Of a stretch of 31,964 nucleotides of DNA, positions 1,414 through 18,086 are shown in pieces; the first letter of the stretch is position 1, and the number at the start of each line of letters is the position of its first letter. Below the pieces are notes generated by a model. That model saw only the letters and a program-made list of their open reading frames with translations. It was not told the DNA's origin and did not search any database. Origin of the DNA: a virus; the IMG/VR virus record IMGVR_UViG_3300042343_000286, positions 1 to 31,964 of that record; one strand, 5' to 3'. Position numbers and translations under genes: made by a program.

Positions 1414-2622
1414 TTAGAAGAATAAGATAGCACCTGCTGATACCGAACGTGATTTACCTTCTGCACCGTTTTGTGCTTCTGATTTAACGTCTGAGTATTC
1501 AGCTACTAAGTTTACGTGTTTTGTAAGTGGGTGATAAGCACCAACAGTCCACATTTCGTTTTTCGAAACTAAAGCTGTAGCTGTTTCGCTACTGTTACGA
1601 TCTAATTTACTTTGACCATAACTTACACCAAGTTTAGTTGCTGTAGGCAATGTGTATGTACCTTGCACGTAACCGCCGTTTGAATCACGACGTTTACCTG
1701 TAGCATCAAAGCCGTCTAGCAATTGAATTGTACGACCAATACCTTTACCATCATAGTAGTAAGCAGTCAAGCCATACGGACCAGCAGCTAAGTTTGTACC
1801 AACGTCCCAAGCATAAGCGCGATCATCTGCACTAGCACCAGTTACGCCTTCAACTTTTTGTGTGATAGCTGATGACCAAACTTTGGCAGCGATAGGGCCT
1901 TCTAATGAGTATGATACTTTACCTTCAAATGCTGGCTGAGCACCGCCACGTCCTGTTGAAGTGGCTGAAGCGTTAGTTACTGCGCTAGTAGCATTTAAGT
2001 CAGCTGATTGAGCATTCCATGCTTGCGTTACGCCAGCTGTGAAGCTAAAGCCATTGAAGTTTGGTGACGTGTAAGCAATTTGTGATTTCCAGTCAGCGTA
2101 CATATAGCCTGTACCAATACGACCTAGTGTAGTTGTATTACCTGCTAAGGCACCAGCACCTGCACCAACGCCTAATAATGTCATGTCGTTTAAGATAGCA
2201 TCGCTAGCAAAAATACCTAAGTCTTTACCTAGTTTTACACTGCCCCATGATTTGTCACCGATGGTTAAGAATGCTTGACGATTTTCTTGATTAGCGCCTT
2301 GATCGCCGCCCTGTGTTGTAGAAGCACCAGGATTGATAGCGATCGTAAAACCAATGTCTAGATCATTTTGACGTGATTTACCGGAAATTGATAATACGTT
2401 TGGTAATAAACCAGTTGTAATATTTGATTCGTTACGTTGACCATTGGCATTAGGACCGCCAAGGCCACCAACCACTGCACTGCCTGTGCCACGTGTGTTT
2501 GTGTAGTAAGCGTTAACTACGCCACCGATGTCTAGAGTCCAATCACCTGCTGGAATTACGATGCCAGCGTGGGCAGTTGAATACATACTTGCTAATAATG
2601 TTGCTAATAATAATTTCTTCAT
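1414..2622 (-). CDS. Outer-membrane general porin (Gram-negative porin family)
   Basis: A 402-residue trimeric-porin-type protein. It has a 19-residue signal peptide (ends AHA), then a first beta strand (GDWTLDIGGVVNAYYTN), a loop-3-like acidic and glycine-rich segment, alternating amphipathic strands, and the C-terminal phenylalanine (AILFF) needed for outer-membrane insertion. The pattern resembles betaproteobacterial porins. It is a complete gene with a good AAGGAG ribosome site, its own promoter and its own terminator. Porins are rarely carried by phages. Possible roles are nutrient entry during infection, replacing a host porin, or masking the receptor against superinfection; none is shown by the sequence. 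Origin by transfer from a host is likely. A chimeric assembly is made less likely by the T4-late-type promoter in front and the common strand. Confidence 0.9.
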   Translation of the reverse strand: MKKLLLATLLASMYSTAHAGIVIPAGDWTLDIGGVVNAYYTNTRGTGSAVVGGLGGPNANGQRNESNITTGLLPNVLSISGKSRQNDLDIGFTIAINPGASTTQGGDQGANQENRQAFLTIGDKSWGSVKLGKDLGIFASDAILNDMTLLGVGAGAGALAGNTTTLGRIGTGYMYADWKSQIAYTSPNFNGFSFTAGVTQAWNAQSADLNATSAVTNASATSTGRGGAQPAFEGKVSYSLEGPIAAKVWSSAITQKVEGVTGASADDRAYAWDVGTNLAAGPYGLTAYYYDGKGIGRTIQLLDGFDATGKRRDSNGGYVQGTYTLPTATKLGVSYGQSKLDRNSSETATALVSKNEMWTVGAYHPLTKHVNLVAEYSDVKSEAQNGAEGKSRSVSAGAILFF

Positions 2623-2744: not shown

Positions 2745-2768
2745 AGAAAGTGTGGCAGAAATGCCACA
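2745..2768 (-). terminator. Probable terminator after the SAH hydrolase gene
   Basis: The stem TGTGGCA/TGCCACA closes on a GAAA-type tetraloop 8 bases after the stop codon. On the minus strand it is followed by CTTTCTT, a weak T run. It closes the five-gene metabolic operon. Confidence 0.6.
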
Positions 2769-2775
2769 CATTTGC

Positions 2776-4062
2776 TTAGTAACGATAAGTATCTGACTTA
2801 TATGGGCCTTCAACTCTAACACCAATATACTTGGCTTGATCAGCTGACAACTCTGTTAGTTGCGCACCAATCTGTGCCAGGTGTAACTTGGCTACTTTTT
2901 CATCTAGATGTTTTGGCAACAAATGAATACTACCTGTATTGTAATCTTCCCAATTTTGGAACATTTCAATTTGTGCTAACACTTGATTAGTAAAACTGTT
3001 TGACATAACAAAACTAGGATGTCCTGTGCCGCACCCTAAGTTTACTAGACGACCTTTGGCTAAAATAATAAGTTTATTACCGCTAGGCATGGTAACGTGA
3101 TCAACTTGTGGTTTAATTTCATCCCACTCGTAGTTAGCTAAACTAGCAATGTCAATCTCACTGTCGAAATGTCCAATATTACACACAATAGCATTGTGCT
3201 TCATCGTATTCATATGGTCATGTGTGATAACATTGATATTACCTGTAGCTGTTACAAAAATGTCTGCTTTATCTGCGGCATAGTCCATAGTAACCACACG
3301 ATAGCCTTCCATGGCCGCTTGTAAGGCACAAATTGGATCTACTTCAGTTACCCAGACCTGCGCACTTAGAGCACGCAATGCGGCGGCACTACCTTTACCC
3401 ACATCACCAAAACCTGCTACTACTGTTACTTTACCAGCAATCATCACGTCAGTGGCACGTTTGATTCCGTCCACTAAACTTTCACGGCAACCATATAGAT
3501 TATCAAACTTAGTTTTAGTTACGCTATCGTTTACATTAATAGCACGTAAGTGGAATTCTCCATTGGCGATCGCTTCATTGATTTTATGAATGCCAGTGGT
3601 TGTTTCTTCAGTAACACCACGGATTTCATTTATCAAATCTGGACGGTTATGGTGCACCCAATATGTTAGATCATGCCCGTCATCTAGCAGCATGTTGGGA
3701 CGCCAATTATCAGGGCCACTAAGTGTTTTCTCAATACACCACCAGTATTCTTCTTCTGTTTCGCCCTTCCACGCAAACACAGGAATGCCCAAGTCTGCTA
3801 ACGCGGCCGCGGCGTGGTCTTGTGTACTAAAAATGTTACAGCTAGACCAGCGCACTTCTGCGCCCAAGGCAACTAGTGTCTGCACTAATACCGCAGTTTG
3901 AATAGTCATATGTAGACTACCTGCAATACGAGCGCCTTTGAGTGGTTGTGTTAGTTTGTACTCTTCTCTGACTGCAATTAATCCGGGCATTTCCGTTTCT
4001 GCAATGGCTATTTCTTTGTGCCCCCAGGCTGCTAGACTGATATCTTTTACTTTGAAATCCAT
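2776..4062 (-). CDS. ahcY: S-adenosylhomocysteine hydrolase
   Basis: A 428-residue cytosolic NAD-dependent enzyme that splits S-adenosylhomocysteine (SAH) into adenosine and homocysteine, relieving product inhibition of methyltransferases. It is complete. Visible family features are the substrate-domain segment [11 protein letters not shown] (49-59), the Rossmann NAD site [12 protein letters not shown] (about 215-226), [10 protein letters not shown] and the C-terminal KSDTYRY. The usual bacterial DDGGD segment reads DDGHD here. It is the last gene of an operon with a 2-oxoglutarate dioxygenase, desaturase, B12-type radical SAM protein and quinone reductase, 33 bases after the last of these. 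A nearby SAM-methyltransferase gene (8755-9450) and the radical SAM enzyme are plausible SAH sources. SAH hydrolase genes are unusual in phages. Function is confident; the reason for carriage is inferred. Confidence 0.95.
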
Positions 4063-4095
4063 GTTTTATCCTATAATTAATATAATATATACTTA

Positions 4096-4782
4096 TTAAA
4101 CTACCTGTTCTAGTAAATGTTTTTCTAAATTATCTATTAGATAGTTTGAATTTTTTTCTTTTTTTGCATTTAATACTGTATGGGCACCGACTGACCAGGT
4201 GAAATATGGGTTCATAAATTCGTACCCAACTAACCCAAATTGCACTTTCATATGTCGGGTTAAATTCTCTTCGTTATCAAAGTAACTTTCCATAAATTCT
4301 CGACTACCGCCCGTGGTCATTGACATCATTACCCGACGGCCTGTTAAAAATTTATTATGCTCTTGCTTGCCGCCTTTGGTTTCTACGTTGTTTAATGTAA
4401 ATAATGCATCGTACGCAAATACATTTTCAATGTATGCTTTAAGCAACGATGGGTACGTCCACCACCACAAGGGGCACTGTATATAAAGTAAGTCTGCCTC
4501 TTTTAATTTTTCTATTTCTTGCAGTGCAAACTTAGGCAATAATCCGGCTTTATTTGCTAGTAACCATTTGTCAGTAAAACTGCGTATCTTGCTAGTAATA
4601 CCCGGTAAACAAAAGTCACGTTTAAAATTATTCTCCAATCCTCTTGGATCAAAATTTGACCTATACAAGTCTAGTATATTAACTTCGTGCCCGTTGGATT
4701 TAAAACAGCCAACTGCACGTTCAAATAGTGCATGATTTAGGCTTGTTTTTGCTGGGTGCACCAGCATGGCATAAATTTTCAT
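4096..4782 (-). CDS. Flavodoxin-2-family NAD(P)H:quinone oxidoreductase-like protein
   Basis: A 228-residue protein of the flavodoxin-like fold (NQO1/MdaB/KefF group), which uses FAD or FMN and NAD(P)H. The first strand is MKIYAMLVHPAKTSLNHALF, the typical start where HP...SLNHAL binds the flavin phosphate. Next come DILDLYRSNFDP, QCPLWWWTYPSLLKAYIENVF (the PLWW-P-LK motif) and a GG-containing loop (MSMTTGGSREF). The start codon overlaps the stop of the upstream radical SAM gene (ATGA, 4779-4782), so translation is likely coupled. In context it could supply electrons to the desaturase, the dioxygenase or reactivation of the cobalamin of the radical SAM enzyme; that is inference. The family call is good, the substrate unknown. 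Confidence 0.82.
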   Translation of the reverse strand: MKIYAMLVHPAKTSLNHALFERAVGCFKSNGHEVNILDLYRSNFDPRGLENNFKRDFCLPGITSKIRSFTDKWLLANKAGLLPKFALQEIEKLKEADLLYIQCPLWWWTYPSLLKAYIENVFAYDALFTLNNVETKGGKQEHNKFLTGRRVMMSMTTGGSREFMESYFDNEENLTRHMKVQFGLVGYEFMNPYFTWSVGAHTVLNAKKEKNSNYLIDNLEKHLLEQVV

Positions 4783-6665
4783 TTTACAAATACCCCTAAT
4801 AGTTGTTTTTTACCTCGCATGATATTTCCTGTATCTAAAAATAATTTATACATTGATATCACCGAATTTATATTATATCTTTTAGTTTTTTTAAAACTTA
4901 TCTTATTCATCCCTTGCCATAGTGTTTTTCCTATGTTATTTTTATTAACATAAAGTTTTTGTTCACCAGTGATGATTTCATAAGGTATGTTGTATTTTTC
5001 CTTTATGTATTCTAAAATATCCGATCGAAATCTATTATCAAGAAATACCAAGGCAACAAAATAATATCCACCATAGATATTATTATTGTCAATATCAAAC
5101 GTACAGTCTAATTTAGGATCATTAAGAATTTCCTGCCATCTGTTGTATATCGTTTGATAGTAGTTGCTAGATTTGAAGAAATTATTAAAAATATCTCGTA
5201 TAATCACGCCGTGACGACGGCCCGCATGCTTCTGTCTTATCCAATCTAATGTATTACTAAAATAGCCGCCTTGCACAAATAGATTATATAGACTAGTAGA
5301 CAACAACATTTCTAAATATTCGTCGGTGGTATAAGTATCACAGCCCACAACTATCTCATGTTGTGCATGAGTCTCCGGATAACTCCACCCGTTGGTCTTG
5401 GCTACTGTTTTTATACCCCATGTTTTCCTATATTCTATTCCATAACTAGGGGCTTCGGGCAGCAAGATCCATTCAAACCACTGGACAGATAATCTATAAT
5501 TGCCAAATACATCTAGCTCATGATAGAATTTATCTAAGGTCATGCCAGGTAATCCCATAATGATTTCTACATACAAAGGTAATTTAGTATTTTTAGCAAT
5601 AGGTTCAAATACAGATAATTGCTTTTCAAAGGGAATATTTTTTCGATCGATATTTTTTAATATATCGTTGTCTAACGTCTGCAGACTTAGTTTGATTTCT
5701 TTATTGTGGCTAAGATTATTATGTATGTCTGTTTCTAATATCGATTTAATAGCATCAAGTCTATTTTCAGTTTTAGCAAATCCACCATAGCCCATCCTAA
5801 ACGTAGCACGTGATTCTTTTTTGCGTTTAACAATATAGTTGATAATATCTATGTCTCGATCACCAAATATACCAAAATTAGCATCGGCTAGATATAGATA
5901 GGTAAGATCAAATGTAACCAATGCATCTATATCTTTTTTAACTGAGTCAGGGCTCTTTTGTATCACAGTTGTTCCAATGCCGCCACCCCAATCACAGTAT
6001 GTGCAGCCGTACGGGCAACCGCGGGTAGTTTCAACAATACTTAACAACATAGAGTCGTTGAAGTTGATTTTTTTAAACGTTTCAAATTCTTTAAGGGCCG
6101 ATTGCTGTGCCAAAAATGCACTGTAGTCATAGTGAAATTCTTTACGCTGACTTCGAGTCATAGACTGGTTGCTGGACAACATAGCTCTAGATTTACTTGG
6201 ATATCTGGTATCTGTTAATAATTTCCAATCAACAACACCGCTGTCATAATTGTCTAGTAGTTCTTTGAAAAATACTTCGCCGTAACAGTCCCCTAGGTGA
6301 CTAGCATCTAAATAAGGATGTTTCTTAAACCAATCAATATCATGCTTAAGATATTGATGCGGGCCGCCACTAACTACTAGGCATTTAGGAAATGTTTCTT
6401 TAACCCATGTGGCTATTTCATGTGCCAGGCCAAAATTCCACACATACAAACTAACAGCAAACACATCTGGTTTAGTGCGTAGTAGTTCGTGTTTAATTTT
6501 ATTAATATCAGTAGCATCATAGCAGTCAAGATAACACGGATGCCAGATCCATTCATCTTTATGTTTGCCATGCATCTCATAATAGGTTTTGGCACTGGCC
6601 CACAATGCTGGCAACCATATCTCACTGCTAAATCTAGGAAAGTTTGCTATGACAATGGTTTTCAT
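4779..6665 (-). CDS. B12-binding-domain radical SAM protein
   Basis: A 628-residue protein. Residues 1-140 form a Rossmann-like domain of the cobalamin-binding type (TIVIANFPRF, DVFAVSLYVWN, VSGGPHQYL), though the classic DxHxxG histidine motif is not evident. The radical SAM core follows, with the 4Fe-4S cluster motif CPYGCTYC (Cys 217, 221, 224) in ETTRGCPYGCTYCDWGGG. A long C-terminal region of unknown type completes it. Enzymes of this architecture methylate unactivated carbons or rearrange substrates. It overlaps both neighbours (6662-6665 and 4779-4782) in a four-gene translationally coupled string. A class B methylase would release SAH, which the downstream SAH hydrolase could remove. 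Substrate cannot be read from the sequence. Confidence 0.85.
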   Translation of the reverse strand: MKTIVIANFPRFSSEIWLPALWASAKTYYEMHGKHKDEWIWHPCYLDCYDATDINKIKHELLRTKPDVFAVSLYVWNFGLAHEIATWVKETFPKCLVVSGGPHQYLKHDIDWFKKHPYLDASHLGDCYGEVFFKELLDNYDSGVVDWKLLTDTRYPSKSRAMLSSNQSMTRSQRKEFHYDYSAFLAQQSALKEFETFKKINFNDSMLLSIVETTRGCPYGCTYCDWGGGIGTTVIQKSPDSVKKDIDALVTFDLTYLYLADANFGIFGDRDIDIINYIVKRKKESRATFRMGYGGFAKTENRLDAIKSILETDIHNNLSHNKEIKLSLQTLDNDILKNIDRKNIPFEKQLSVFEPIAKNTKLPLYVEIIMGLPGMTLDKFYHELDVFGNYRLSVQWFEWILLPEAPSYGIEYRKTWGIKTVAKTNGWSYPETHAQHEIVVGCDTYTTDEYLEMLLSTSLYNLFVQGGYFSNTLDWIRQKHAGRRHGVIIRDIFNNFFKSSNYYQTIYNRWQEILNDPKLDCTFDIDNNNIYGGYYFVALVFLDNRFRSDILEYIKEKYNIPYEIITGEQKLYVNKNNIGKTLWQGMNKISFKKTKRYNINSVISMYKLFLDTGNIMRGKKQLLGVFVK

Positions 6666-7516
6666 TTAGCCATTCCTAATTTTAGCAATTTAATTATATA
6701 ACCACCAAGATCTATTTCAAACCAACGATAACTATGGCTTTGTTGCTGTATCCAACGATGTGTGTGATGATTGTTGTGCAACAACGAACTAAAAAGGCCG
6801 CATCCTAACAAATAATGCGTTATCAATCTATTGTTGCTGTTATTGGGGACATCTTCATTTCTATACCCTAACAATTTACTGTGCCCTAAACTAGTAGTAA
6901 GGAACGTAATTATACTAATGATGATACGGCCCATAAACACAATTTTAAACAATACCACCGGCATTACTAACCATAACACAAGCCAATATAATAATGTTAA
7001 CGGTATTTTAAATTCTTCACAGAAAAACGTCCAGTTGTCTTCTAATATATCTTTATGTATAATAGATTGTCTTGTCACATAAGTGTCTCTATTAGAATAG
7101 TCTGTTAGAGTTTGATATAAAAACATAATAGGACTCAGACTACAAACCGTATACCAATGTAGAGGAAAGTACAAATTATCTCTGCCGGATTGATCTGTTT
7201 GACTGTGATGATTTCCGTGATTAATACAGATATTGGTTAACGGTCCGTTGGCATGATCAACTGTGATTAGGAATGTTAATATTTTGTAGGTTAAACTTTT
7301 TGTATTAATCTTAAATAAGTAGTGTGAACAAATAAGATGACCGAATAACTCATTGATTGTAACGGTATAAAATGTCGCAAGGACATACCAATACCATTCA
7401 GTATTAATATGTTTCAAAGTTACTGCTAGTTCGTTAACACCAGCGACCCAAGCCACTGATGTTAAGACAAACAGTATAACATTGCTAGGATTAAGCGTGA
7501 ACATACTTTTTAGCAA
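6662..7516 (-). CDS. Membrane fatty-acid desaturase-like di-iron enzyme
   Basis: A 284-residue integral membrane protein with several hydrophobic segments (about 12-28, 42-57, 78-88, 123-136, 172-212). It has the three histidine boxes of the membrane desaturase/hydroxylase superfamily: HLICSH (60-65, HX4H), HGNHH (100-104) and HNNHH (247-251). This is the layout of delta-9-type acyl desaturases, which put a double bond into acyl chains using O2 and an electron donor. Relatives in the same superfamily also make terminal alkenes or acetylenes, so the product is open. The ATG lies inside the end of the upstream dioxygenase gene (26-base overlap) and its stop overlaps the next start, so it belongs to the coupled operon. 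The host inner membrane is the expected location. Confidence 0.87.
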   Translation of the reverse strand: MLKSMFTLNPSNVILFVLTSVAWVAGVNELAVTLKHINTEWYWYVLATFYTVTINELFGHLICSHYLFKINTKSLTYKILTFLITVDHANGPLTNICINHGNHHSQTDQSGRDNLYFPLHWYTVCSLSPIMFLYQTLTDYSNRDTYVTRQSIIHKDILEDNWTFFCEEFKIPLTLLYWLVLWLVMPVVLFKIVFMGRIIISIITFLTTSLGHSKLLGYRNEDVPNNSNNRLITHYLLGCGLFSSLLHNNHHTHRWIQQQSHSYRWFEIDLGGYIIKLLKLGMAK

Positions 7517-8606
7517 ATGCTTTAAAATACCCTAATAAATCACGAGGGGGGAGTTTAAAGTTTTTAATGCCAGCAATCTTAACGATATGGCGTATTTCGT
7601 TAGCGTACTCGTTGGCATAGGGTTGCTGTAGGTATGGCTGGTATGCACCATCTTGAAGATTGGTATAATCATGAGCAATACGATAACATAGTCGACCTTC
7701 AATATTGCCCAATCTGCGATGTAGGGTGATTGAATTGTCAAACAACATTAAATCATTATTGTTCTTATACCAATGGTCATACATATATTTTTCAACAAAT
7801 AGTTCTTTATTGATACGTTTAAATACCTTATCGCTTTCTTTCTTAGTAAGGCCTTTGATACTGTAAGCAGTATTGATACTATAATGCAATCCTGTAATAC
7901 CGCCTGGGCTACGGATAACCATTGGGATTTCTCTGTCCTCTTCTGGACACATGTTGGCGTGCATGATAGCATCTTGTTCTTTATTCAATCCGGGATTAAT
8001 TTTACCAGGAGTAAAGCGATGCAAGATAATCATGTCATCTAGCTCTCTACGGAAACTATCATTTACATTTTCATAATAGTCTGGTGTTGTGACAAATCCC
8101 GTAGCACTACCAACAACATTTTGTTGTGCAAACAATGCAACACCCGGAGTCCAAGTTAAGGTACCGCTTTCGTTGCTGTGCCACAATAGTTCGCCTTCGG
8201 CGAACAGTCCTTTAGGATTACCGTCTTCATCATAGCCGCCAGTCACACGACTAACATCATAACCGCTGGCTGTGCGTTCTTGTGTTTTAAACAATGATCG
8301 AATCGCCACTGCATCTTCTGCATCTAAATAGTCAGCACTTTCTTGTGCATCATTGACAATGATAGGCCAAGGTCTATCATATTTTTTAACTAGATAGTTT
8401 TTAAGACCGTACCGTGTTTCGCCAAATTTAAGAACACGATCTACAAAGTGGTCTTTAGTTAAATTGGTATTACGAATAACAGTAACAAGTCCCTGCATAT
8501 GAATCTTGCCTATTTCTAACCATTCATCATCTGACAAATGATTAAAATCTACATCATCGACGTAAGTGCCAAATCGGCCAAGACCAGGAATCTTTGATAA
8601 TTTCAT
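7491..8606 (-). CDS. TauD/TfdA-family 2-oxoglutarate Fe(II) dioxygenase-like protein
   Basis: A 371-residue protein of the clavaminate synthase/TauD-like fold. The first iron-ligand region reads LLWHSNESGTLTW (His 143, Asn 145), where typical members have HxD or HxE. The distal His is in DNSITLHRRLGN (His 296), followed 13 residues later by the 2-oxoglutarate-binding Arg (309) in RLCYRIAHDY. The N-terminus (IPGLGRFGTYVDDVDFNHLSDD) resembles the usual start of these oxygenases. It is the first gene of the metabolic operon, with an AGGAG ribosome site and a late-type promoter 140 bases upstream. The substitution of the metal-binding carboxylate may change chemistry or mean that Glu 146 takes over. 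Family call is firm; reaction unknown. Confidence 0.85.
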   Translation of the reverse strand: MKLSKIPGLGRFGTYVDDVDFNHLSDDEWLEIGKIHMQGLVTVIRNTNLTKDHFVDRVLKFGETRYGLKNYLVKKYDRPWPIIVNDAQESADYLDAEDAVAIRSLFKTQERTASGYDVSRVTGGYDEDGNPKGLFAEGELLWHSNESGTLTWTPGVALFAQQNVVGSATGFVTTPDYYENVNDSFRRELDDMIILHRFTPGKINPGLNKEQDAIMHANMCPEEDREIPMVIRSPGGITGLHYSINTAYSIKGLTKKESDKVFKRINKELFVEKYMYDHWYKNNNDLMLFDNSITLHRRLGNIEGRLCYRIAHDYTNLQDGAYQPYLQQPYANEYANEIRHIVKIAGIKNFKLPPRDLLGYFKAFAKKYVHA

Positions 8607-8744
8607 AGAAAATTCTCCTCAATATTTTAATAGTATAACAGATTTATTTTAATATTGCTAGTGAAGAATTTCACATACGACATAGAGGGCCCATTTCGAA
8701 GGTCATCTACTCGACGTCAACACTGAAGGTTGGCGTTGCATTAA

Positions 8745-8752
8745 TATTTATA
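8745..8752 (-). promoter_or_regulatory. T4-type late promoter octamer (TATAAATA) before the metabolic operon
   Basis: This is a perfect TATAAATA on the minus strand, directly after the stop codon of the upstream methyltransferase gene. It would give a leader of about 130 bases before the dioxygenase start. The leader contains an imperfect hairpin around 8713-8740 (ACG-CAAC pairing with GTTG-CGT) without a T run, so a structured 5' leader is possible. Confidence 0.6.
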
Positions 8753-8754
8753 CG

Positions 8755-9450
8755 TTAGCGTTGTTTAGTGAAAATATATAGAACCAACCCACCATTTTCA
8801 CTATTAAACCAAGCTAAAAAGTCTACAAATTTGTTAGAAATGCTAGGGTTCGCTGATTGAAATTCTAAGTCACTACACATGTTGCGTACTTGCTTATTAC
8901 TAAAACTTAACTCAAATGGATTATTCTCTTGATCTTGATACAACGTATCACAATTGTAGTTAATGTTAAAGAACCTTTTGAGTATTTTACCGTTTGGGTT
9001 ATACAGTGCCAACAGTAACTTTCCACCAGGTTTAAGTAACTGTTTAATTTTAGCCAAGGCTTTTTCATATTGTGGAATATGGTGTAACACTCCGCAACAG
9101 ATAATTACATCATATTTCTTGCTAGTTTTAAAATTTAAAAAATCTGTTTTAACCCATTTAACATTATTGATTCCGTTAGTTGTAGCAAAGTTACTAGCAT
9201 AATCAATGCTATCACTAAAGTCAACTGCGGTGAATCTACTATTCTTGTATTTGTCAGCGAACAGATTCGATACTAATCCTGTCCCACAACCAACATCTAA
9301 TACATCCATATTATCATTTAACATTAGATCGATCTCACGTAAATAGATATTGTGTATGCCTTGTTCTTCATAGAACTTCAAATCTTCCAAACTATAGCGG
9401 CCGGGAAAATGTAGATTACTATAAAATTGTTTAATTTGTTCAGTGATCAT
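8755..9450 (-). CDS. SAM-dependent methyltransferase (class I)
   Basis: A 231-residue Rossmann-fold methyltransferase. Motif I is VLDVGCGTGLVS (50-61), the acidic loop is AVDFSDS, motif IV is CCGVLHHIP and the post-motif is LLKPGGKLLLALYNP. The N-terminal segment HFPGRYSLEDLKFYEEQG is a cap that probably selects the substrate, which I cannot identify. Its start overlaps the stop of the upstream SGNH-type gene by ATGA, so the two are translationally coupled. It ends just before the late promoter of the metabolic operon, whose SAH hydrolase could dispose of its SAH product. Methyltransferases of this type act on small molecules, lipids or sugars; DNA-methylase motifs are absent. Confidence 0.83.
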   Translation of the reverse strand: MITEQIKQFYSNLHFPGRYSLEDLKFYEEQGIHNIYLREIDLMLNDNMDVLDVGCGTGLVSNLFADKYKNSRFTAVDFSDSIDYASNFATTNGINNVKWVKTDFLNFKTSKKYDVIICCGVLHHIPQYEKALAKIKQLLKPGGKLLLALYNPNGKILKRFFNINYNCDTLYQDQENNPFELSFSNKQVRNMCSDLEFQSANPSISNKFVDFLAWFNSENGGLVLYIFTKQR

Positions 9451-10361
9451 CTAAGACTTTCTAGTAATTCTTTATATTTTGCTGATAACAGATCTTCTGT
9501 TGAATCAATAATAAAATCGTTAGGTGAAAATTCTGGTATTGGCATATTAATGGTTTCTTGGGATATCTTTTTAGCAAGTTCTCTATGCTTACCTAATTTA
9601 GGATTTTGATTTAAAATTAGTTCTAAGGCATAGTCATGATGTGCTAGACTGTTAGGATGATGATCTGTTTCATGCTTTAATACAACATATTCTTTATTGT
9701 TAATAAAGTATTCCCAAATACCAGAAAACTCCTTGGGATTAAATGGATTTTTTGGCGGATTAATAAATTTTGTCCAGTCTATTAAATTTATTAGATTTTT
9801 TATAGGCGACAACTCTGTTATTTGTTTAATTGTTTGTATTTCACCAGCAGAGATATCATCTTTTTCTTGATAGACAGTTTTATATCTAGGATAAAATTTA
9901 GGTCTCCCATCTGCCCATATATTTTTAGAAGAATGCATAGTATATGAGCATCCTATTTTTTCTAACAACAACTGAGTCTGATAAATGATCTGCAACTGAT
10001 CAACTATCATGTTTGTAAAACTCGAGTACAGGTCTGGGTGTGTTCTGTATAATCCCATGTATGGATTATCCTTGCTAAACCAAATTTTTCCCTCTGTGGC
10101 AGGGAAAAATCCTGCTACTTGTTTGTTTTTGACCCATTCTTCGTCGTACCATAAACCAATTCGATGATTCTCGGCCCACATAATATTAATATGATCTTTT
10201 TCTGTAAATGAATTTATTTTATCAAGCAAGATCCAATAGATATTTTGATTACCGTATCCTTTATTAGCCAAATTTGTCACAGGTTGATCGTAGACTTGTA
10301 GCCAATCAGCCCACGTAGGCCAATACCATTTAGTCATACTACACCCAAGTGTATAAATCAT
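9447..10361 (-). CDS. SGNH/GDSL-hydrolase-like protein
   Basis: A 304-residue protein. The start MIYTLGCSMTKWYWPTWADWL has GCS at residues 6-8 in the block I position, with Ser 8 as possible nucleophile. NKGYGNQNIYW follows, and a DHHPNSLAHH segment near the C-terminus matches the DxxH/DxH block V. Proteins of this kind occur in T4-like environmental phages and are esterase- or acyltransferase-like. No signal peptide is seen, so it should act in the cytoplasm, perhaps on a sugar or lipid intermediate made with the glycosyltransferase and methyltransferases nearby. It lies 3 bases after the 65-residue gene and overlaps the next gene. Fold call moderate, substrate unknown. Confidence 0.6.
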   Translation of the reverse strand: MIYTLGCSMTKWYWPTWADWLQVYDQPVTNLANKGYGNQNIYWILLDKINSFTEKDHINIMWAENHRIGLWYDEEWVKNKQVAGFFPATEGKIWFSKDNPYMGLYRTHPDLYSSFTNMIVDQLQIIYQTQLLLEKIGCSYTMHSSKNIWADGRPKFYPRYKTVYQEKDDISAGEIQTIKQITELSPIKNLINLIDWTKFINPPKNPFNPKEFSGIWEYFINNKEYVVLKHETDHHPNSLAHHDYALELILNQNPKLGKHRELAKKISQETINMPIPEFSPNDFIIDSTEDLLSAKYKELLESLR

Positions 10362-10364
10362 TGA

Positions 10365-10562
10365 TTAGTCCTTGGGGGCTTCTCTATTAGGTTTTTGTGC
10401 CATTGCTGGATCACTAAATTTGCGACCTTTGTTGGCTACATACGTTGATTGAGCATCAATCATTGCTCGTTTAAAAATGCCACGTGCTACAGGATCAATG
10501 ATATTAGCAAGTTTAATCTTATTCATCTTGCCAAATTTAAATGTTGAGTTTGTTTTTGCCAT
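10365..10562 (-). CDS. Small basic protein of unknown function
   Basis: 65 residues, rich in Lys and Arg, with a central helix-prone segment (IKLANIIDPVARGIFKRAMID) and a disordered basic tail. I do not recognise it. It sits 9 bases behind the omega-like gene with an AGGAGA ribosome site and 3 bases before the next gene, so it belongs to the same operon. A role as a polymerase-binding or nucleic-acid-binding partner of the omega-like protein is only a guess from position and charge. Confidence 0.6.
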   Translation of the reverse strand: MAKTNSTFKFGKMNKIKLANIIDPVARGIFKRAMIDAQSTYVANKGRKFSDPAMAQKPNREAPKD

Positions 10563-15898: not shown

Positions 15899-17001
15899 TC
15901 TTCTTGTCCTTGTTCTAATACTTGATTTTCACTTAAGTCTTCATCTGCAACTTCAGCAGTTTCAGTACTTAGCAAAGGGTTAACATTAGATGAAATTTCT
16001 TTCATTACTTTGTCTAATGATCCGTCTTCGTTTCGTTCCCATGCTTTGCGGAATTGTTTAATAGTTTTTCCGTCTGCTAGTGTATAAACTAAACTGTTAC
16101 CTTCTTTCTTAAGCAAGTTCTTAGCTTCTAACATGTCTGTTAATCCTGAGTAAGGACTCATACCAGTTTCATATGGAATCTCTACTTGTACTGACTCAAA
16201 CGGTTTAGCATAACGAGTTTTCATAATCTTACAAGCAGCACGGATACCGTTAACTGTTGTAGTCTTGTTACCGTCTGCATCTGTTTTAAGTTTAAGTTTA
16301 CGCATGGCTACAACAATACTCGAAGCGTAGATAAAGCCCTGACCACCTGAAATCTTGTCATCTGGATCAAACATATCTTGGCTTGCGTATGTATGATTAG
16401 TTGCCACTAGACCTAAGTTTAATGTACCAAACATGTTTACACAGTTACGTACAAGTGCTGTAAGTGCTTTAGGTTTACGACCCATATCACCCTTCATTTC
16501 ACCTGCTTCAAACTGGTTAACGTCTGTTGGAGTAAGCATCATACCCAAGCTGTCTAGAACAAACAATACTTTTGGACGGTCTTCTTCTGGAAGTGTACGA
16601 TACTCTTTAACAAAGTCACTGATAACTTTAGCCACATCATCAATCATAGCCATGTTAAGTTTAAGTAACTTGCTTTCGTCTGTGTCTACACCTAATGCGT
16701 GTAACCATGCTTCGTCAAGTGCGTTTTCTGTATCAATTAAGATTACATAGATACCTTGCTCTTGCGCATGACGTACAATGTTGCCTGAACAGATAAATGA
16801 TTTACCTGCGCCGGATTCACCAGCAAACACAGTTACCTTACCCATTGGGATACCTTTGTTAAAGTCTCCGCTTAATAGATAGTTTAATGTGTAGTTGCCT
16901 GTTGAGATCCAATCAGTTGGATCGTTAAAGCCAATACCTAAGCCTTCAATGCTTTTAGTAATTGACTTTCTAAATTTACTAATGTCGAATGGTTTCGCCA
17001 T
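15895..17001 (-). CDS. uvsX: UvsX RecA-like recombinase
   Basis: A 368-residue RecA/UvsX family ATPase that forms filaments on single-stranded DNA for strand invasion and recombination-dependent replication. Walker A is GESGAGKS (61-68), the Walker-B-type strand is KVLFVLD (Asp 150), followed by SLGMM, and the Gly-rich DNA-binding loop ISGGQGF occurs near 220. Other RecA-core segments are DTENALDEAWL and MKTRYAKPF. The C-terminus is acidic (VADEDLSENQVLEQGQEE), a usual regulatory tail. The length is near the T4 protein (about 390). It is separated from gp32 by a strong terminator, so it needs read-through or its own promoter; a GATAAATC octamer lies right before the ATG but too close for a usual leader. 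Confidence 0.95.
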   Translation of the reverse strand: MAKPFDISKFRKSITKSIEGLGIGFNDPTDWISTGNYTLNYLLSGDFNKGIPMGKVTVFAGESGAGKSFICSGNIVRHAQEQGIYVILIDTENALDEAWLHALGVDTDESKLLKLNMAMIDDVAKVISDFVKEYRTLPEEDRPKVLFVLDSLGMMLTPTDVNQFEAGEMKGDMGRKPKALTALVRNCVNMFGTLNLGLVATNHTYASQDMFDPDDKISGGQGFIYASSIVVAMRKLKLKTDADGNKTTTVNGIRAACKIMKTRYAKPFESVQVEIPYETGMSPYSGLTDMLEAKNLLKKEGNSLVYTLADGKTIKQFRKAWERNEDGSLDKVMKEISSNVNPLLSTETAEVADEDLSENQVLEQGQEE

Positions 17002-17016
17002 GATTTATCCTTATTG

Positions 17017-17045
17017 AAAAAAGGGTAGAGCATTAGACTCTACCC
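17017..17045 (-). terminator. Rho-independent terminator between gp32 and uvsX
   Basis: The perfect 8-base stem GGGTAGAG/CTCTACCC has a 7-base loop and is followed on the minus strand by TTTTTT. It begins 16 bases after the gp32 stop. It would let gp32 be made in large amounts without equal expression of uvsX. Confidence 0.9.
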
Positions 17046-17060
17046 CAATCTTATACTAAA

Positions 17061-18086
17061 TTAAGATGTTTTTTGACGATTGCGAATCATTGCAAGGATG
17101 TCTTCAGCACGTTGGCCGCCACCTGCTGGTGCCGTTACTGGTGCTGTAGGTGCAACGTCGTCTGTTTCAAACGGTACATCTACTGATTCAACATGCTCAC
17201 TAACTGGCGCACTAGCCGCCGGAGTTGATGCCGCAGGTGCTGATTGTGCTACAGCTTGTGCCGCAGGAGCCGCTGTTGCGCCGCCTGCTGGTGCACTAAC
17301 ACCACGTGGACGGTAGTAGCTACCCCAACGCTCTGTGTCATACGCCTGACCATCAACTGATGCTTCAAACATCTCTTTGATAACTTTAAGCTCAACATCA
17401 CTTGGTTTCTTAGGAAGGAATTCGCTAAGATTGTACAAGCCATGTTTCTCAATGGCTTCTGCTTCGTCTGCTGTTAATGCAGATTCTTTACGTGACCATT
17501 TTGAAGTTGAGTAGTCAGCATAACCACCTTTTGATGTTTTGCTAACTGTAAAGTCCAAACCACCTTGGTAGTCTGTTGGTAAGTTTTCTAACTCAGGATC
17601 AAGCAAGGCTGCTTTAATTAAGTTGAAAATTTGTGGGCTGATGATGAAACGACGAATTGGATTCGCTGGTGTTGTATCATCTGCAATTGGGTTTTCATGT
17701 ACAAAGCCTTGGAACAAGTATGATTTCTTTTTCCAATATTTACGACCCATCTCTTCTAATGATGCGTCTTTAAACCATGTACGTACTTCTGCAAGCACTG
17801 GACAAGCTTCGCCATACATTTCTACGCATGGTACTTGAACTGTAACTGGTTTACTATCTGCTTGGCCTTTTACACCAGCAAATGTTAAGTTGATCATTAA
17901 ACGCTCTGCCCAGAAGAAGTCATTCTTTGGATTTGCGTCTGGTAAAAAACGGATTCTTGCGTTTGTGCCTTCTGGAATGTTCCAGTGGGCGTAGATAGCG
18001 TTATCGCCTTGTTGTTGACTACCGCCTGAACTGCGGTTTTCTTGTGCTTGTAATTTTGCACGAATTTCTGCTAATGATGTTGCCAT
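17061..18086 (-). CDS. 32: Single-stranded DNA-binding protein, T4 gp32 type
   Basis: 341 residues. The basic N-terminus (LAEIRAKLQAQENR) corresponds to the gp32 cooperativity domain. The OB-fold core includes ARIRFLPDANPKNDFFWAERL and CVEMYGEACPVLAEV (87-101), aligned with the T4 zinc segment ending CPVC, then YLFQGFVHENP and FIISPQIFNLIKAAL. Of the T4 zinc ligands only two Cys (87, 95) remain: the last Cys is Leu here and no His is seen at the first site, so zinc is probably not bound in the T4 way. The tail is Ala/Pro-rich, then acidic (ESVDVPFETDD), but ends basic (RNRQKTS), unlike T4. It has a structured leader with a late-type promoter and its own terminator. Confidence 0.93.
   Translation of the reverse strand: MATSLAEIRAKLQAQENRSSGGSQQQGDNAIYAHWNIPEGTNARIRFLPDANPKNDFFWAERLMINLTFAGVKGQADSKPVTVQVPCVEMYGEACPVLAEVRTWFKDASLEEMGRKYWKKKSYLFQGFVHENPIADDTTPANPIRRFIISPQIFNLIKAALLDPELENLPTDYQGGLDFTVSKTSKGGYADYSTSKWSRKESALTADEAEAIEKHGLYNLSEFLPKKPSDVELKVIKEMFEASVDGQAYDTERWGSYYRPRGVSAPAGGATAAPAAQAVAQSAPAASTPAASAPVSEHVESVDVPFETDDVAPTAPVTAPAGGGQRAEDILAMIRNRQKTS

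Follow-up and report, generated by a model that had tools for sequence, protein, structure and literature searches.

An exchangeable enzyme cassette with a predicted cobalamin-dependent methylase in T4-like freshwater phages

The IMG/VR viral fragment IMGVR_UViG_3300042343_000286 (31,964 bp; the whole stretch is the window) carries a run of enzyme genes that ends in a gene for S-adenosylhomocysteine (SAH) hydrolase. A first-pass annotation of the window had read five of these genes, from a 2-oxoglutarate dioxygenase-like gene to SAH hydrolase, as one biosynthetic operon. All five open reading frames (ORFs) are present, intact, co-directional and tightly packed on the minus strand. We find, however, that the true unit is a cassette of six genes, encoding an SGNH-like protein, a methyltransferase, a TauD-like protein, a desaturase, a radical S-adenosylmethionine (SAM) methylase and an NQO-type flavoprotein. 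The cassette is, on strong comparative grounds, exchangeable, and it occupies a hotspot in the genomes of T4-like freshwater phages. Its role, with a probability of roughly 45%, is to make or transfer an acyl-type group that is desaturated and C-methylated, likely on an envelope lipid or glycolipid. The cassette genes and the flanks of the hotspot are as follows.

10365..10562, minus strand: orf65, small conserved ORF, upstream boundary of the hotspot
9447..10361, minus strand: SGNH-hydrolase-like protein, 304 aa, first cassette gene; GCS, NLANKGYGNQ and DHHPNSLAHHDY blocks
8755..9450, minus strand: class I SAM-dependent methyltransferase, 231 aa; Pfam Methyltransf_31, 4.9e-22
7491..8606, minus strand: TauD/TfdA-family 2-oxoglutarate-Fe(II) oxygenase-like protein, 371 aa; H143-S-N145-E146, H296 and R305/R309
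6662..7516, minus strand: membrane di-iron desaturase, 284 aa; HLICSH, HGNHH and HNNHH boxes and H212; probable ATG at 7504
4779..6665, minus strand: predicted cobalamin-dependent radical-SAM methylase of the TokK/CysS/KedN5 type, 628 aa; W76, C217-x3-C221-x2-C224 and W226
4096..4782, minus strand: flavodoxin-fold NAD(P)H:quinone reductase (NQO1/MdaB-like), 228 aa, optional cassette gene
2776..4062, minus strand: SAH hydrolase, 428 aa, resident flank of the hotspot and not part of the cassette
1414..2622, minus strand: porin (Porin_4), downstream constant flank

Results

A hotspot beside SAH hydrolase holds different enzyme sets

The hotspot was found by reading the neighbourhoods of SAH hydrolase genes at loci without the radical-SAM gene. 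In the window the slot measures 6.3 kb and lies between orf65 and the SAH hydrolase-porin block; at many slot loci SAH hydrolase is likewise followed by a porin. The same flanks enclose different contents across relatives. At cassette-free sites (L344, L359, L368) a relative of orf65 abuts or overlaps SAH hydrolase, with a gap of -1 to 3 nt, and at QueF-only sites (L335, L338, L341, L342, L348, L366) the gap is exactly 405 nt, with a QueF-like gene inside. A QueF-like gene also lies in the slot of L350, directly upstream of SAH hydrolase. Other slots contain a PglD-like hexapeptide transferase, a desaturase, a second B12-type radical-SAM protein (rSAM2) and a further desaturase (L339, L345), a desaturase with a hexapeptide transferase (L346, L356, L363) or TauD with a hexapeptide transferase (L337, L353), and the window-type content is sometimes joined by QueF (L022). 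Fifteen slots have contents beyond QueF: a desaturase is present in 12 of them, a B12-type radical-SAM gene in 10, an SGNH/hexapeptide transferase-like gene in 13 and TauD in 7.

Divergence across the region is mosaic. Compared with L004, the window TauD is 97% identical, the radical-SAM protein 75% and the SGNH-like protein 63%; compared with L002, the cassette is 76-87% identical and the upstream neighbours 55-78%. SAH hydrolase is present beside a different cassette or none. The constant flanks with varied contents, together with the mosaic divergence, therefore place SAH hydrolase among the resident flank genes and make the cassette the exchangeable part. Elsewhere in the window (19632-18274, minus strand), a second B12-binding-type radical-SAM protein of 452 aa is encoded, with SSB on one side and a 742-aa gene on the other; the alternative desaturase cassette in L339 and L345 includes relatives from this protein family.

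The cassette recurs in ten lineages with varying membership

Comparison of the radical-SAM protein with IMG/VR gave 23 loci by protein search and 67 by profile. At 13 loci from ten lineages, a methyltransferase gene is adjacent to the radical-SAM gene or at most two genes from it. These loci show two different gene orders and include a desaturase (11 loci), SAH hydrolase (11), SGNH (9, directly beside the methyltransferase), TauD (8) and the reductase (8). The radical-SAM gene is accompanied by the methyltransferase more consistently than by TauD, SAH hydrolase or the reductase, and the methyltransferase occurs at 10 of 51 distinct radical-SAM loci versus 0 of 57 loci with SAH hydrolase only (Fisher p=3e-4). 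Loci of the close desaturase family are rare, numbering 15; the radical-SAM gene lies within 8 kb in 10 of them and TauD within 8 kb in 10. TauD (279 viral stretches) and SAH hydrolase (at least 155) are both common in aquatic phages; this radical-SAM family is near 13 of the 79 best TauD loci and 10 of the best 80 SAH hydrolase loci.

A gene-neighbourhood search had been proposed as a check of the annotated operon. The radical-SAM gene and its partners do recur, in 10 distinct lineages, as a conserved phage-borne set. The five annotated genes, however, are not the unit: SAH hydrolase is a conserved flank, TauD and the reductase are dispensable, and SGNH and the methyltransferase belong. These two additional genes stand at the head of the run and overlap each other by 4 nt. 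A fixed five-gene operon was rejected since three of the genes, those for TauD, the reductase and SAH hydrolase, vary independently of one another.

The radical-SAM protein carries the signature residues of TokK

The radical-SAM protein matches TokK (E 6e-61) and CysS (1e-46). Its CxxxCxxC cysteines (C217, C221 and C224) are invariant in 16/16 homologues, as are W76, which aligns with W76 of TokK, and W226, which lies two positions past the last cysteine and aligns with W215 of TokK. In TokK, W76 sits under the cobalt of cobalamin and W215 bridges SAM and cobalamin (PMC9692996). The Pfam B12-binding match of the phage protein is below its cut-off, and the KedN5 subfamily model NF033712 scores 134 bits, short of its curated cut-off of 700. 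Because the TokK-type signature residues are invariant together with the three cysteines, the protein is strongly predicted to be a cobalamin-dependent C-methylase (class B), which bears out and narrows the B12-type radical-SAM label given before. It has in common with TokK (the C6 methylase of carbapenem; PDB 7kdx/7kdy), CysS and KedN5 the Rossmann cobalamin domain, the CxxxCxxC motif and both tryptophans; unlike them it is phage-borne, belongs to no antibiotic cluster and has a different C-terminal third.

Relatives of the radical-SAM protein occur in other settings. A sister clade (L024, L110-L121, L123) lies among GTP cyclohydrolase I, QueD-like, QueE-like and phosphoribosyltransferase genes, with SAM synthetase also nearby in several loci; these surroundings hint at a link to 7-deazaguanine modification. 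In a marine clade (L011-L016, L023, L107) a DnaB-type helicase gene comes next and, in several loci, a Toprim primase gene comes before.

The partner enzymes

The desaturase carries the His boxes HX4H, HXXHH and HXXHH (H60-H65, H100-HH104 and H247-HH251 in the window), of which the third reads QXXHH in several relatives. It has no direct match to Pfam PF00487. By hhalign it aligns with Pfam-positive phage fatty-acid desaturases (98.8%, E 1e-16), so the annotated membrane desaturase is a genuine, diverged relative of the FA_desaturase family. A fold search was uninformative, given the low-confidence model.

Assignment of the TauD-like protein to the TauD/TfdA family is clear from its scores (PF02668 1.8e-17, 64.5 bits versus a cut-off of 27; phrog_24590 2.6e-103). 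The earlier reading as a 2-oxoglutarate dioxygenase thus stands at the level of the family; the canonical HxD motif is missing. HSNE replaces it in 59 of 61 distinct phage homologues, with the site placed by motif spacing and not by structure, while H143, H296 and R305/R309 are retained. The "taurine catabolism dioxygenase" of cyanophages P-HM1, P-HM2 and MED4-213 is 45% identical to the window protein, and the aligned P-HM1 copy also has HSNE. Unlike in the window, the gene stands alone in P-HM1 and MED4-213, without other cassette genes. In many lake phages, L175, L176, L179, L188 and L204 among them, a TauD-like gene directly follows a GDVTGNV-repeat protein, and several radical-SAM, GNAT-like and Asp-hydroxylase-like genes lie around it.

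The motif-like blocks of the SGNH-like protein are conserved, and its AlphaFold2 model, of low confidence, has the SGNH esterases 1deo and YxiM as best fold matches (1deo: E 0.011, probability 0.99). The reductase matches PF02525 (2.2e-29, 103 bits versus a cut-off of 27) and NQO1 in the PDB (9e-17). SAH hydrolase is canonical (TIGR00936 7.8e-181, 601 bits versus a cut-off of 498).

Gene layout, signals and selection

The overlaps of 26, 4 and 4 nt and the 33-nt gap before SAH hydrolase are as first described, except that the 26 depends on a TTG start of the desaturase. An ATG 12 nt further in is the start in most relatives and gives a TauD/desaturase overlap of 14 nt. Two signals had been proposed to bound the operon:

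8745..8752, minus strand: TATAAATA octamer, T4-late-promoter-like, 138 nt upstream of the TauD-like gene
2750..2769, minus strand: terminator-like hairpin 3' of SAH hydrolase, 8 pairs and a T-rich tail

The octamer is present at 8752-8745. It is not enriched, with 2 copies in the window versus 5 expected, and two further genes lie upstream. The copy before TauD is kept at the same place in L004 (138 nt upstream) and is missing in L002; the sole other copy precedes the porin and is kept in L002 and L005. A role of TATAAATA as a general late promoter in the window was rejected, as copies are below chance. The hairpin also exists, and hairpins of its kind are about as frequent in shuffled sequence (9 found versus 6.9 +/- 2.5 expected).

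The cassette genes have a GC content of 32-38%, versus mostly 38-44% for structural and flank genes. Pairwise dN/dS (nonsynonymous over synonymous substitution rates) between the window and L002 or L004 is 0.03-0.08 wherever computable, with some synonymous sites saturated, and every gene is under strong purifying selection. Broken genes in relatives had been named as evidence that would speak against the operon; we found no premature stops in L002 or L004.

The carrier phage and the surroundings of the slot

The same genes occur in a second contig, L003/G001 (62,450 bp), with 100% protein identity. Terminase, tail sheath, tail tube, UvsX and SSB genes show that the carrier is a contractile-tailed T4-like phage; its terminase is 55% identical to that of the Pseudomonas jumbo phage PA5oct. 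Around the slot are porins, a phosphate porin, a metallophosphoesterase, nucleoside diphosphate (NDP)-sugar genes, glycosyltransferases and a sugar C-methyltransferase-like gene. A gene at 14304-13522 (minus strand) encodes a cytidylyltransferase-like domain fused to a mannose-6-phosphate isomerase C-terminal domain. Window positions 2622-272 and L003 positions 16402-17811 hold three successive phage-borne genes, for a general porin, PstS and a phosphate-selective porin. For the porin, identity is 97% in L004, 93% in L005 and about 50% in L002, and this unevenness suggests that it may have been exchanged recently. Naming a host by the porin was abandoned as too weak, the best match being only 47% (369 genomes; class of a Halioglobus metagenome-assembled genome).

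Distribution and related systems

No searched phage-isolate record contains the set, in keeping with the earlier remark that no described phage operon with its set was known. None of the GenBank phage records has the desaturase, SGNH or methyltransferase of the cassette, and traces of the radical-SAM protein there do not go beyond 20% identity; tblastn with the desaturase gave no match among 50,697 phage records. In a one-genome-per-species collection of cellular genomes no operon was found and the best identity was 28%. A cellular source of the cassette was accordingly rejected (80 loci, best 28% identity, no operon). The openly licensed literature yielded no paper on this gene combination or on a swappable slot before SAH hydrolase.

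Cyanophages encode desaturases. A stearoyl-CoA desaturase is encoded by a Fonsibacter phage (PMC7029224) and an acyl-CoA desaturase by a Baikal Nitrospirota virus (PMC7678222). Like these acyl or lipid desaturases, the window enzyme is a membrane di-iron desaturase in an aquatic phage; unlike them, it is Pfam-negative, diverged and placed inside a methylase/oxygenase cassette. Desaturases, 2-oxoglutarate oxygenases and radical-SAM cassettes have each been noted in aquatic phages (PMC7678222, PMC7029224). Of the Baikal methylotroph phages, VP_139 is reported to encode SAH hydrolase, SAM synthetase, radical-SAM proteins and methyltransferases, and VP_139 and VP_266 resemble the window as T4-like freshwater phages with SAH hydrolase, radical-SAM, methyltransferase and cytidylyltransferase genes; in contrast, the available part of that report describes no desaturase, TauD-like gene, B12-type methylase cassette or hotspot for them (PMC7678222).

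Natural-product-like clusters of these families occur in other viral loci (L279, L280, L133/L134 and L130), where the genes also include GNAT-like and B12-type radical-SAM proteins. In the unrelated clusters L279 and L280, radical-SAM, TauD and methyltransferase genes overlap in series and are accompanied by an AMP-binding protein; L279 has two desaturase-family genes and L280 a Trp_halogenase-family protein. Several desaturases and several radical-SAM proteins are encoded on L133, a 228 kb contig, together with a phosphopantetheine carrier protein, a fatty-acid hydroxylase and a Rieske protein. JamABC-type tailoring uses an acyl-acyl carrier protein (ACP) ligase, a desaturase and an ACP. A likeness to it, a membrane desaturase with ACP and AMP ligase, is suggested by L133 and L279; the window cassette differs in having neither ACP nor ligase. 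The acyl-activating partners in L279, L280 and L133 lend indirect support to acyl chemistry.

Discussion

In the scheme we propose, the cassette enzymes would work one after another on a substrate at or within the membrane; that this substrate is of the acyl type is what we infer. The desaturase would introduce a double bond, and the TokK-like enzyme would place a methyl group on an unactivated carbon, spending two SAM on each methyl. Capping or transfer of the product could then fall to the class I methyltransferase and the SGNH-like protein, and the TauD-like enzyme, if active, might oxidise it. The NQO-like flavoprotein would presumably supply or balance reducing equivalents, and the resident SAH hydrolase would clear SAH from both methylases. 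The product is likely destined for an envelope lipid or glycolipid, for two reasons: the slot has porin, phosphate porin and sugar C-methyltransferase-like genes around it, along with glycosyltransferase and NDP-sugar genes, and an acyl- or acetyl-transferase-like gene is found in most occupied slots. That the cassettes are swappable versions of a viral cobalamin-dependent C-methylation pathway, with a methyl-branched, unsaturated acyl product made by neither host nor any known phage, is a further step that we regard as possible and rather doubtful.

Several observations weigh against the acyl proposal. The window encodes no ACP or acyl-activating enzyme. Generic desaturases show no significant excess at radical-SAM loci (12 of 51 versus 7 of 57 loci with SAH hydrolase only, p=0.14), because the SAH-hydrolase-only control loci carry desaturase cassettes too. 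The predicted structure of the desaturase is of low confidence (mean pLDDT 67, and below 50 in the region of the third His box). Judging from its HSNE motif, the TauD-like protein may be inactive, and the scheme should therefore not depend on its oxygenase activity. The 7-deazaguanine and primase/helicase neighbours of other clades suggest that the radical-SAM family can serve other substrates; given these varied settings, the radical-SAM fold by itself does not settle what the substrate is.

The same neighbours, together with QueF in the slot of many relatives and beside the module in L022, would fit a role of the radical-SAM enzyme in building a hypermodified base, for example one derived from 7-deazaguanine. 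SAM synthetase is found with the 7-deazaguanine-type genes of the sister clade, and the marine relatives lie between primase and helicase. Window-type slots, however, lack those genes except for QueF in L022, QueF is often present without the radical-SAM gene, and a membrane desaturase would have no role in nucleic-acid modification, which we consider quite improbable. The position of the slot inside a sugar-nucleotide/glycosyltransferase region is what one would expect if the substrate were a surface glycan, with an NDP-sugar or lipopolysaccharide sugar being C-/O-methylated, oxidised and O-acylated and the desaturase only adjusting the membrane. SGNH and hexapeptide transferases, common glycan tailoring enzymes, occur in 13 of the 15 occupied slots; desaturases, which are not sugar enzymes, occur in 12, and other clusters of these families include ACP and AMP-binding parts. 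We therefore judge the glycan explanation unlikely.

Alternatively, the genes might mainly push host one-carbon/SAM flux, as proposed for VP_139 of the Baikal methylotroph phages, whose gene mix is very similar (PMC7678222). In favour, SAH hydrolase is a fixed part of the flank, and the sister clade has SAM synthetase genes nearby. Such auxiliary metabolism leaves unexplained the desaturase, TauD and acyltransferase-like genes as well as the exchange of cassettes beside a constant SAH hydrolase, and is improbable in our view. If the radical-SAM and oxygenase enzymes instead modified a protein of the phage or host after translation, this would recall the TauD homologues that elsewhere often adjoin GDVTGNV-type repeat proteins and radical-SAM genes. 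As the slot has no such repeat protein and the desaturase would again be left over, we give this explanation very little weight.

Modification of an envelope lipid or glycolipid with an acyl-type group is thus the reading we prefer. Phage metabolic genes are usually read singly, as look-alikes of host genes. The defined slot described here exchanges entire sets of enzymes with similar chemistry, among them methylases predicted to depend on vitamin B12, and the SAH hydrolase that would serve the exchanged methylases stays in the flank. With its cassette-free, QueF-only and several cassette-bearing forms, the slot offers a clean comparative system in which to study the purpose of a phage cassette. 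If the proposed acyl chemistry is correct, infection by these phages would alter envelope or acyl chemistry and impose on it a demand for B12.

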